NCBI GenBank assembly: GCA_031292565.1
Contig: JARLGW010000012.1
Span: 372,001-436,000 of the forward strand
DNA: 64,000 nucleotides
Source: Paludibacteraceae bacterium
GTDB lineage: Bacteria; Bacteroidota; Bacteroidia; Bacteroidales; Paludibacteraceae
Reading direction: 5' to 3'
Position 1 is the first letter of the stretch. Every line of letters begins with the position of its first letter. The notes below the pieces were generated by a model that saw only the letters and a program-made list of their open reading frames with translations, was not told the DNA's origin and did no database searches. The translations under genes were made by a program, and so were the position numbers. Shown here piece after piece: positions 36,086 to 40,115 of the stretch.

Positions 36086-36098
36086 AATATGTTATTTG

Positions 36099-37058
36099 TT
36101 AGTTAATATAATGATAGGTAGTGGTTCGTCCGTCTCCCTTTTTTAGCAAGATGTTGTCTGTTGTGGCTTGTTTCAAATCCCTACTGGCTGTTGCCGTGGA
36201 AATTCCTTTAAAATGCCGCAGGTAATCCGAACGGCTAAATGCCTTCTGTCCGATGTAGGTTTTAAATAATTCTATTCTGTCCGTGGTTGTTACATGTATG
36301 TTTTGCCCTTGTAGCAACTCATCCAAACTGGCATCTATGATCCCTAATAAGAATTCGATAAAAGGTGTGGAGCTGCCCAAGCTATCGGCTTTTCCCAACA
36401 CTTCGTAATAGCTCGCCTGATTCTTTTTTATCAACGATTCTATGGGCAAAAATTCAAACACGGGGTTCACCGTGCGTAATATAACCGTTTGCCAGAGCCT
36501 TCCCATCCGCCCGTTGCCATCCGTGAACGGGTGGATAAATTCAAATTCGTAATGAAACACGCAACTTTTTATCAGCAGGATGTCTGGGTCGTTTTCTAAA
36601 TAATCGAACAAATCATGGAGTAATGGCGATAGCATTTCACTTGGAGGAGCCAAATGAGTAATAGCTTCGCCACGGGCTATGCCCACGGCTGTGGTGCGCA
36701 GCTTTCCGGCTTTGCCTACCAACCCGTGCATCAACGTTTGATGTGCTTGAAGCAAGGCGTCCAGTCGGAATGGGTTGTATTCCCCAATTCGTTCGTAAGC
36801 CGCGATGGCATTTTTCACTTCCAGTATATCTTTTTCGGGAGCAAGCACGTGCTTATTTTCCAACACCGCCGTTACTTGTTCTATGGTAAGCGTGTTACCT
36901 TCTATTTCCAGCGATGATTGTATGGTGCGCACGCGGTTCTTCTTTCGCAGTTCGGTGGGAGCCTTATGCAAAAATGCGGATTTAACCTCCCCCAGTTTCT
37001 CTGAAATAGAGGAGGTTAGCGATAATATTTGCGGGGTGATTTGATAAGGCGGCTTCAT
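36099..37058 (-). CDS. Fic family protein (intact motif) with C-terminal HTH-like region
   Basis: HPFTDGNGRMGR catalytic motif, SLEIEGN inhibitory-type motif, C-terminal DYLRHFKGISTATASRDLKQATTDNILLKKGDGRTTTYHY. Confidence 0.92.
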   Translation of the reverse strand: MKPPYQITPQILSLTSSISEKLGEVKSAFLHKAPTELRKKNRVRTIQSSLEIEGNTLTIEQVTAVLENKHVLAPEKDILEVKNAIAAYERIGEYNPFRLDALLQAHQTLMHGLVGKAGKLRTTAVGIARGEAITHLAPPSEMLSPLLHDLFDYLENDPDILLIKSCVFHYEFEFIHPFTDGNGRMGRLWQTVILRTVNPVFEFLPIESLIKKNQASYYEVLGKADSLGSSTPFIEFLLGIIDASLDELLQGQNIHVTTTDRIELFKTYIGQKAFSRSDYLRHFKGISTATASRDLKQATTDNILLKKGDGRTTTYHYIN

Positions 37059-37238
37059 CGGCTGATAGTATCATTTGATAGCATCAAAGGTACGGATAGT
37101 TTTCCGATTAGAAAAATCGGAGCGCAAAGTTACACATCCTTAGCCGGATTGGCAAGGAGAAATTTACAGCTTGAGTTCAGTCACAGGGTGCGGCATCCTC
37201 GTTTAGGTAGTGGAGGGTATAGATATTATCAGAGAGAG

Positions 37239-37432
37239 CAGCCTGAAAGGCTACTTTAGTTCAGCCCAAGGCAAGCGAAGCGACACCTTGGGTTACATGT
37301 CAATGAGTATTTTTGCAGGCTGTAAGCCTAGGTTAACAGTTATATTAAGTTGTCCTTACAGGACGCTGGGTTTTGGCTTGTCTATTTCCCAAGGTGTTGC
37401 CTTGGGCTGAAATAAATTGGGCTTTCAGCCTG
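37239..37432. repeat. Palindromic intergenic repeat element (two inverted arms of related sequence)
   Basis: Left arm CAGCCTGAAAGGCTACTTTAGTTCAGCCCAAGGCAAGCGAAGCGACACCTTGGG; right arm (reverse complement) CAGGCTGAAAGCCCAATTTATTTCAGCCCAAGGCAACACCTTGGG; inner hairpins AGGCTGTAAGCCT and GTCCTTACAGGAC. Confidence 0.75.
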
Positions 37433-37477
37433 AAAACATATTTTATGTGAATTGAAAAATCTATTTTGACGAAAAAA

Positions 37478-38698
37478 TTATCTTTTATCAAAATGAAAAG
37501 CCATAATTTCGACCTGAACTTCTTTGTTTTTGTCTTGAGGTAAATGAAAAATATAAGAAAAGGAGGATTCACCTCTAGCTTTTAAGGTTCGAATATAATA
37601 AGGATGATTTAGAGTTTCTGATTTGATAACATCAAGAACATTTGTAAAATCGACATTATCGACGAAGAGAATAACTGCTACTTTCGAATCTCGCCAAGTT
37701 AAGTATCTATCAAAAAGTTGTGAGATTGCTTTTATATATTCTGACTGTCCATGCCAAAATTTACATTCAGCTATAAATAAATTGGTTCCGTCTTCTGCGT
37801 ATTTAAGAATTATATCAGCTTTTCCACTTCGATTAAATGTTTCACCAGTGGCTGTAGTTCCTTCGTATCTAGTTTCTAATATAAATAGAAATTGATCTCT
37901 GATCCCTTCCTCATCTTTACCAATATATAATGCAGGTTTTTTCTCCATGCTTTTCCCTGAATTATAAATAACGGTTAATATATCATTATACATTTCTTGA
38001 CTCATAGATGGTACAGAATTAAATTCTTTACCTTTTGAAATTTGAGGTTGAGAAATTATTTTTTTCTTTAATACGGGTGCTGAAAAGATTGCTTCTGTAT
38101 CTGAATTTGTTTTTACATTTATTGCTGCAAAAAAATCATTTTCACTTTTATATTTATTTTTTTCCTGTAAAAACATTGAACGAACAGTATTTTCAAAAGA
38201 AGAATTAAAGTTCGCAATATTTTTATTAAGATTATCAATATTGGCAAATGCACTTGAGTAACACTGAGATTTAATTTGTTTAAATTCTTCCGGATCTTGT
38301 TTGTATATTTTAAATGTAAAAGAAACTCTATTTGAACTATTATCTATTTCAAGAGGATAAGAAGTTAATGTGTAAGGATTAGATTGAACTCTAAACAAAA
38401 TTGCAGATCCACTAAATTGATATGTTATAGTAAAAATGTATACATCGCTAATATAATACCGACCAAACATATCTTTTCGTTCCTCCTTGCTAGTAATGGG
38501 ATCTGAAATCAATTCTGATTCATTGATAACTTTTAAAGGTTCAAGGTTGTATTTATTAATTAAATAATCAAGATATTCATTTTCATCAACTTTTAGAATA
38601 TAATCTTTACTTTTTGATAGTATTTCTTGTTTTATAGTATTATACCATATCTCAGGAAATTCCAGCCCTCTTATTTCGCTAAATGATTCTACTCTCAT
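37478..38698 (-). CDS. Uncharacterised protein with C-terminal PD-(D/E)XK nuclease-like domain
   Basis: 406 aa; C-terminal EEGIRDQFLFILETRYEGTTATGETFNRSGKADIILKYAEDGTNLFIAECKFWHGQSEY: D (GKADI) followed by ExK (AECK). Confidence 0.75.
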   Translation of the reverse strand: MRVESFSEIRGLEFPEIWYNTIKQEILSKSKDYILKVDENEYLDYLINKYNLEPLKVINESELISDPITSKEERKDMFGRYYISDVYIFTITYQFSGSAILFRVQSNPYTLTSYPLEIDNSSNRVSFTFKIYKQDPEEFKQIKSQCYSSAFANIDNLNKNIANFNSSFENTVRSMFLQEKNKYKSENDFFAAINVKTNSDTEAIFSAPVLKKKIISQPQISKGKEFNSVPSMSQEMYNDILTVIYNSGKSMEKKPALYIGKDEEGIRDQFLFILETRYEGTTATGETFNRSGKADIILKYAEDGTNLFIAECKFWHGQSEYIKAISQLFDRYLTWRDSKVAVILFVDNVDFTNVLDVIKSETLNHPYYIRTLKARGESSFSYIFHLPQDKNKEVQVEIMAFHFDKR

Positions 38699-38824
38699 GT
38701 TTTCTAATGTATTTGATATTTTATATTATTGTGAATGTCTGTGTGAGGCAAATGTTTTATATCTTCTTCAAATATAAATACTCCTATCTAAACTTAATGC
38801 AATTTATCTATTTAATTTTCTTTC

Positions 38825-38857
38825 AGACCTTCCATATCTTGAAGATATGGAAGGTCT
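38825..38857. repeat. Perfect 15-bp inverted repeat upstream of second fic gene
   Basis: AGACCTTCCATATCT TGA AGATATGGAAGGTCT. Confidence 0.85.
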
Positions 38858-38919
38858 TATGAAATTTGTCATTTTTCCGACAAACAAATTCTTCCCCAAG
38901 TCTTTATTTTTGGACAATT

Positions 38920-39927
38920 ATGGGAAGAAGAAAAATTGTTATCACCCCCGAATTTACGATTACGAGCAACATGGTGAATCTGTTGGCTGAAATTACCAAA
39001 ATGCTTACACGGTTGGAATACCTGCCGCGGATGGATTTGCCCCTGCGTCGCACGATGCGCCTACAAACCATTCAAGGCATGCTCGCTATAGATGGCATCG
39101 GGATGCCGATGGAACTCATAGCGGCTATCCGAGACAATAAACACGACATACTTACACCCCTGGATATTGAGGTGCGGAATGCCATCAAGGTTTACCGGGA
39201 GGCGGATGCCGCACGATGGAATTTGTTTTCGGTATCAACGATGAATTATATCCACAAAATGCTTATGCCCGGTGGCATGAGCGAATATACCAAAGGCATG
39301 ATATGCGGTGTGGGCATTGACACGGATGGAATAGTTACCAGAAGAAACCTGCCGGCGGATAAAATTTCGGATTTGATAGCCAACCTCTTGGAGTCGTTGA
39401 AAGATACCATGGTGCATCCGCTTATTGCCGTGCCCGCGTTTCACTACGAGTTAGAGCATATACACCCGTTTGCACTTGGCAATAGCCGTGTGGGCTGGCT
39501 GTGGCAAATGCTTTTGCTGAAAAGCTGGAACAAGCTATTTGCCTACTTCCCCGTGGAACAAATGATTTATAAAGATCGAGAACATTACGTGTCGATGACG
39601 AATTATAGCACCGAAACAGGCGATTGCGCACACTACATAGAGTTTATGCTCCATGAAATTCTCGACACCATGAACCAGGTAATTTTCACCCTGGAAACTA
39701 CCCAAGAAACTACCCGAAAAGTTACCCAAGAAACTACCCTGAAAACTACCCGAGAAAAGATACTTGAGGTGCTAAAAAACAGGCCTAAAACGAGTAAAAA
39801 TGAACTAGCCTGTTTATTAGACTGCTCGCCCGACCTGATAAAATATCACATGCAAAAACTTATTAATGATGGGGTTATAGCCAGGGTAGGCTCTACCAAG
39901 GGTGGCCGATGGGAAGTGTGCCAATAG
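38920..39927 (+). CDS. Fic family protein with degenerate active-site motif, TTQETT-type linker and C-terminal HTH
   Basis: HPFALGNSRVGW in place of HPFx(D/E)GNGRxxR; linker ETTQETTRKVTQETTLKTTREK; HTH KNRPKTSKNELACLLDCSPDLIKYHMQKLINDGVIARVGSTKGGRW; start chosen at MGRRKIVITPE. Confidence 0.85.
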   Translation: MGRRKIVITPEFTITSNMVNLLAEITKMLTRLEYLPRMDLPLRRTMRLQTIQGMLAIDGIGMPMELIAAIRDNKHDILTPLDIEVRNAIKVYREADAARWNLFSVSTMNYIHKMLMPGGMSEYTKGMICGVGIDTDGIVTRRNLPADKISDLIANLLESLKDTMVHPLIAVPAFHYELEHIHPFALGNSRVGWLWQMLLLKSWNKLFAYFPVEQMIYKDREHYVSMTNYSTETGDCAHYIEFMLHEILDTMNQVIFTLETTQETTRKVTQETTLKTTREKILEVLKNRPKTSKNELACLLDCSPDLIKYHMQKLINDGVIARVGSTKGGRWEVCQ

Positions 39928-39992
39928 CGGTTGGCATTTTGGGGTTTACCGAAACAGGAAAAGTATCCTATAAAAAACTTGTCTTTTCAATG

Positions 39993-40025
39993 AACCTTTC
40001 CAAGTATTCAAAACTTGGAAGGGTT
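39993..40025. repeat. Inverted repeat downstream of second fic gene, related to 38825-38857
   Basis: AACCTTTCCAAGT ATTCAAA ACTTGGAAGGGTT (12/13 pairing). Confidence 0.75.
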
Positions 40026-40115
40026 ACACGAGAACGAATCCGTTTGATATATAATTTATTCCATTTACCAGAGTTCGGGGCAAATCCGTATCTTTGTGGT
40101 CTAAATTTGTAATTC

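Follow-up and report, generated by a model that had tools for sequence, protein, structure and literature searches.

Fic enzymes that transfer AMP share the motif HPFx(D/E)GNGRxxR. The acidic residue of this motif is the Mg ligand, and a residue with a side chain in place of the second glycine (G2) interferes with nucleotide binding (PMC8401265). The second arginine (R2) forms a salt bridge to the γ-phosphate, and an anion nest is located at helix 5. In the known Fic proteins the γ-phosphate held by R2 occupies the place of the inhibitory glutamate (PMC3667792). CbFic2 from Coxiella burnetii is a class II Fic protein whose C-terminal winged helix-turn-helix (wHTH) domain binds DNA and controls the activity (PMC10628234). 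In Fic2 from Campylobacter fetus, G2 is exchanged for threonine and R2 for alanine (motif HPFREGNTRTIA), and the protein contains no inhibitory motif. It is toxic through its histidine and is neutralized by the adjoining canonical class II protein Fic1 (PMC5651007). Other Fic families with non-canonical motifs carry out phosphorylation or phosphocholination, and the Fic domain of BepC, which has no known enzymatic activity, nevertheless binds a partner protein (PMC8401265).

Here we analyzed a 64,000-nucleotide stretch of DNA (the window), which encodes a canonical Fic protein, FIC1, and a second one, FIC2, with altered active-site residues.

Domain structure and active site of FIC2

FIC2 is a Fic/winged-helix protein of 335 amino acids with a degenerate active site, encoded on the plus strand (38920..39927). 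Its frame is open from the ATG at 38920 to the stop codon at 39925-39927; the listed open reading frame begins further upstream with a TTG at 38866. The protein starts with a helical N-terminal part and the Fic core; a linker encoded by 12-nt repeats then connects to the winged helix at the C-terminus. Residues 104-200 match the Pfam family Fic (PF02661) with 41.1 bits (gathering cut-off 24), which assigns them to the Fic/Doc fold. Residues 276-320 match HTH_24 with 28.4 bits (cut-off 21.9), so that FIC2 belongs to the Fic proteins with a C-terminal winged HTH. The linker (39688..39768, plus strand; TTQE/TTRK/VTQE/TTLK/TTRE, repeat family D1) leads from the Fic core to the wHTH domain (39739..39915, plus strand). 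The closest solved structure by sequence is 4rgl (4rgl_A, phmmer E 2e-44). A structure predicted from the two window proteins was too poor for use in a fold search, with a mean pLDDT of 51 and values under 50 across most of the core.

The Fic motif is located at 39463..39498 on the plus strand. Its codons, CAC CCG TTT GCA CTT GGC AAT AGC CGT GTG GGC TGG, read HPFALGNSRVGW, exactly as given in the original prediction, and depart from the motif of AMPylating enzymes by the exchanges D186L, G189S and R193W. The catalytic His182, Asn188 and the first arginine (Arg190) are retained together with much of the fold core; for these three residues the alignment with relatives agrees with what had been predicted. 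The former inhibitory helix (TIQGMLAIDGIGM, 39067..39105, plus strand) had also been described as altered, and indeed the class II consensus (S/T)xxxE(G/N) ahead of the Fic core is lost in the alignment by the exchanges S54M, E58D and N60I. The remaining segment is M54-LAI-D58-G59, whereas FIC1 carries the consensus. FIC2 has lost both the second arginine and the inhibitory glutamate. The flap, which serves target docking in Fic proteins, was placed at 39271..39357 (plus strand) from the alignment and the literature, the protein itself having no solved structure. Five of its seven near-invariant columns are changed (L119G, G124T, R127M, H141R and P144L).

For comparison we used 60 relatives besides FIC2, FIC1 included, which were taken from samples of relatives, family, order and phylum as well as from plasmids and phages. 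All of them contain HPFxDGNGRxGR. With none of the 60 altered at D, G2 or R2, the change in FIC2 is beyond chance. In the search of ~1,200 genomes from this phylum the degenerate form was not found elsewhere, so FIC2 is a lone variant there, and the pattern HPFxLGNxRxGxLWQ had no match in 84,980 species genomes, from which the source genome's own records may be missing. Neither the genome contigs nor the viral contigs yielded loci related to FIC2; three viral pattern matches do not resemble Fic genes and were discarded. The original prediction had raised the question of a Bacteroidetes clade with this motif form. Such a conserved LGNSRxGW clade was rejected, as it is absent from the 60 relatives and without a pattern match in the genomes, and the homologues share no degenerate motif.

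Divergence of the Fic core and probable retention of the gene

FIC2 differs in 20 of 55 near-invariant columns (≥ 95% conserved), compared to 0-3 in each of 57 relatives. Three relatives were omitted from this set: a truncated protein, one with a stop codon, and the divergent L015, which had changes in 12 of 63 columns in an earlier count but contains all catalytic residues. The loss is thus more extensive than the motif changes reported at first, since it includes the inhibitory helix and the flap. The altered columns are enriched in the inhibitory helix, flap and motif (12/23, versus 8/32 elsewhere; Fisher P 0.037). The eight changes at conserved columns outside these elements count against a role as a regulator.

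The identity of the FIC2 core to its relatives is 0.35 on average, versus 0.54 among the relatives (z = -7.0). For the HTH domain the corresponding values are 0.29 and 0.28 (z = +0.2); its divergence is ordinary for the family, a modest statement given the loose baseline of 28% mean identity. In the tree, the terminal branch of the FIC2 core has a length of 3.4 versus a median of 0.14 (about 24x). The core/HTH distance ratio is 1.15, versus 0.28-0.91 in 66 other pairs; these pairs were picked by HTH similarity to FIC2, and it is the unbiased comparison of core and HTH identities that carries the weight. A late exchange of the HTH domain with that of another Fic gene would also give this asymmetry, though the highest HTH identity of FIC2 to any relative is just 48%.

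The gene has an intact frame of 335 codons, free of the stops, frameshifts or truncation of a pseudogene. Its GC content by codon position (0.49/0.36/0.54) is host-like, as in ileS and the M16 gene. It is possible, though in our judgment unlikely, that a canonical Fic gene reached this site, lost its function and now drifts, with the frame still open by luck or recency. The isolated position of FIC2 in both genome searches is in line with such decay, and so is the spread of its changes beyond the active site. Several relatives bear an in-frame stop, which indicates that loss of such genes is common. The exchange of D for L, however, requires at least two base changes, and the divergence of the core is far greater than drift without stops would allow. 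In simulations of free drift, which score stops alone before any indels, the frame was kept in 39 of 2000 runs at 80% core identity and in 0 of 2000 at 60%. With a nonsense-to-missense ratio of 0.05, as calculated for this gene, ~200 extra replacements would be expected to bring ~10 stops if neutral (P(no stop) = 4e-5); a third of that number still gives P = 0.03. A late loss of just the last 10-15% of core residues is possible, with the frame surviving in 345/2000 and 125/2000 simulated cases. A wholly unconstrained gene should lose both domains alike, and the HTH domain of FIC2 is not accelerated, which again counts against decay.

The original prediction held that a lone variant among canonical homologues would be a decaying gene. 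Its premise is correct: the homologues are canonical and FIC2 is alone. Simple decay does not follow from it, as free drift could not have produced so much additional divergence and left the frame open. Since the divergence concerns the core only and the frame has survived, most of it probably arose under selection, and judging from the sequence the gene is probably retained for a protein with altered demands on its Fic part. The data searched contain no close homologue of FIC2; as the nearest core identity is just 43%, dN/dS cannot be calculated and selection is not directly measurable.

FIC1 and the accessory island

FIC1 (36099..37058, minus strand) is a canonical class II type Fic protein of 319 amino acids according to its motif HPFTDGNGRMGR, Pfam and the tree. 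As anticipated, its inhibitory segment is intact (TIQSSLEIEGN, with S-LEI-EG). The two proteins had been thought to match over their whole length. The BLASTP alignment, however, covers residues 10-255 of one protein and 3-249 of the other, with 31% identity, and leaves out the HTH regions at the C-termini. The FIC2 core is up to 43% identical to genes of other genomes. A local duplication of FIC1 as the origin of FIC2 was rejected on the basis of the 31% identity and the separate tree clades.

Nor are the two genes direct neighbors, as had been assumed, since a gene for 406 amino acids (37478..38698, minus strand) lies between them. It encodes the phage-defense candidate PDC-S54 (PADLOC, 343 bits, E 9e-103) and has a GC content of 28% (GC3 16%) in a neighborhood of 46%, whereas FIC1 and FIC2 are host-like with 45-46%. 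PDC-S54 was found in none of 150 related genomes. It has plasmid relatives (26-33%) in Spiroplasma, haloarchaea, Rhizobium and others, which are annotated as hypothetical among the matches listed.

A pair of the Fic1/Fic2 type would consist of conserved, overlapping or co-transcribed neighbors; FIC1 and FIC2 are on opposite strands with another gene in between. Pairing was not seen at the 10 relatives' loci examined. The six nearest relatives of FIC2 occur singly amid unrelated genes, and so do the four nearest relatives of FIC1, except that a Fic gene of another type lies beside one of them (L016). With 31% identity, no recurrence at relatives' loci and a foreign gene in between, the idea of an active enzyme paired with a pseudoenzyme is not supported, and the shared location needs no functional pairing. 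Canonical relatives of FIC2 also occur on plasmids inside type I restriction operons (hsdM-hsdS-fic-hsdR), as in Shewanella and Azotobacter (L135 1-3987 and L136 1-3960).

The three genes form an accessory island (36086-40115), with trmD and the PPIase gene on one side and the gene for the M16 peptidase on the other. In three genomes that lack all three genes this site is empty: two genomes of the same genus have trmD immediately next to the M16 gene, and one further member of the family has the gene for the peptidyl-prolyl isomerase there, at a distance of 73 bp from the M16 gene. The island was probably assembled stepwise at this junction.

A repeat search revealed a palindrome upstream of FIC2 (38825..38857; AGACCTTCCATATCTT/AAGATATGGAAGGTCT, with TTCCANNTNTTNAANANNTGGAA at 38830-38852), and a second copy of this type (TTCCANNTNTTNAANANNTGGAA) was located downstream by pattern match (39998..40020). 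The palindrome core matches 10 places genome-wide, a control pattern 0. These places are beside unrelated genes, as expected for general intergenic elements, and a function as Fic operator or as ends of a mobile element was therefore rejected; the palindromes are probably terminators or REP-like elements. A REP-like long inverted repeat is located in the gap between FIC1 and PDC-S54 (37239-37432; 36-nt arms, 86% complementary, CAGCCTGAAAGGCTACTTTAGTTCAGCCCAAGGCAA).

The same genome encodes a second degenerate Fic protein (G000:C5:34684-35883, minus strand; L004, L139). In its motif YPFDSENEKLSR the catalytic histidine, both glycines and the first arginine are all replaced, and its relatives at 29-33% identity read HPFENGNGRVVR and HPFRDANGLISR. 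Two of the six Fic-fold proteins in the source genome are thus degenerate.

Proposed role of FIC2 and comparison with known systems

We propose, with the chances about evenly balanced, that FIC2 combines a catalytically dead Fic scaffold with an intact winged helix and is probably a DNA-bound regulator. It would be a lone, fast-diverging class II winged-helix Fic protein of the 4RGL type that no longer transfers AMP. The exchange D186L would eliminate the metal ligand, G189S would put a side chain into the anion nest, which requires a glycine at this position, and R193W would remove the γ-phosphate arginine. From Fic structures we infer that ATP/Mg binding is lost. Loss of AMP transfer is likely by analogy, given the role of the acidic residue as Mg ligand and the interference of a G2 side chain with nucleotide binding (PMC8401265). 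With the inhibitory helix and the flap dismantled, the Fic core would stay as a folded scaffold, and FIC2 would act via its winged helix, most likely on DNA and with some ligand or partner. CbFic2 sets the precedent for DNA binding by a protein of this architecture (PMC10628234), and BepC that for a Fic domain lacking known enzymatic activity but binding a partner (PMC8401265). DNA binding and regulation are deduced by analogy; no operator or regulated gene of FIC2 was identified. This corresponds to the pseudoenzyme or re-purposed regulator with a kept HTH domain of the original prediction, and it is the best-supported reading, as the core has diverged, the HTH domain has not, and the frame is intact. 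A more specific version appears rather improbable: FIC2 would be a true pseudo-Fic turned transcription factor, in which Leu and Trp line what used to be the ATP pocket, and this site senses a ligand or partner and controls the winged-helix DNA-binding domain.

It is quite unlikely that FIC2 is degenerate yet toxic, with FIC1 as its antitoxin in trans by analogy to C. fetus, although this is the main alternative for which there is an experimental precedent. FIC2 is altered at the same two positions (G2 and R2) as the published toxin and retains His182, Asn188 and Arg190, and the inhibitory motif of FIC1 is intact. However, FIC2 has in addition lost the acidic residue that binds the metal and that is preserved in Fic2 of C. 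fetus, and its flap is rebuilt. Furthermore, fic1 and fic2 of C. fetus overlap by 1 bp, whereas FIC1 and FIC2 are divergent, with starts 1.9 kb apart, a foreign gene between them and no such pairing at relatives' loci. We rate this possibility below that of a regulator with a dead scaffold because of the lost metal ligand and the missing overlap of the genes. It is very improbable that FIC2 is not an AMPylase but a Fido enzyme catalyzing a different reaction, with another donor or phosphate orientation in the manner of Doc or AnkX: His182 is retained, families with non-canonical motifs phosphorylate or phosphocholinate as mentioned above, and Doc-type motifs vary at G2 and R2 too, but in Doc and AnkX the position of the FIC2 leucine is still acidic, and no clade conserves the new motif.

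Degenerate Fic proteins are already known as a kind; to our knowledge the examples are mostly effectors secreted by Bartonella, along with a single toxin from Campylobacter. What appears to be new, as a single case, is a chromosomal gene of the Bacteroidota type in which three motif residues are lost and the inhibitory helix is dismantled while the HTH domain is ordinary. If true, a chromosomal pseudo-Fic of which just the DNA-binding half is kept would reveal a further route for the conversion of a toxin-type enzyme. As a single unreplicated sequence, FIC2 is a lead and not a class.

With the 4RGL-type or Bacteroidota-type Fic-wHTH proteins, among them four of its nearest relatives, FIC2 shares the inhibitory helix, the Fic core and the C-terminal HTH domain; it differs from them at D, G2, R2, the inhibitory Ser and Glu and most of the flap, and by its branch of ~24x the median. 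Like C. fetus Fic2 (PMC5651007), it is changed at G2 and R2, has no inhibitory motif and is found in the same region as a canonical class II Fic protein. The C. fetus protein, in contrast, is a toxin with a glutamate as the metal-binding residue, and its gene overlaps fic1, while FIC2 is known from its sequence alone. As in the Fic domains of the Bartonella proteins BepC and Bep8 (PMC8401265), motif residues are lost and the Fic fold survives. The Bep proteins, however, are secreted FIC-BID effectors that form clades, whereas FIC2 has an HTH instead of a BID domain and stands alone. With CbFic2 (PMC10628234) it has in common the class II Fic type and the C-terminal winged HTH; unlike FIC2, CbFic2 has a canonical motif and a DUF4172 N-terminus and is an active AMPylase/deAMPylase.
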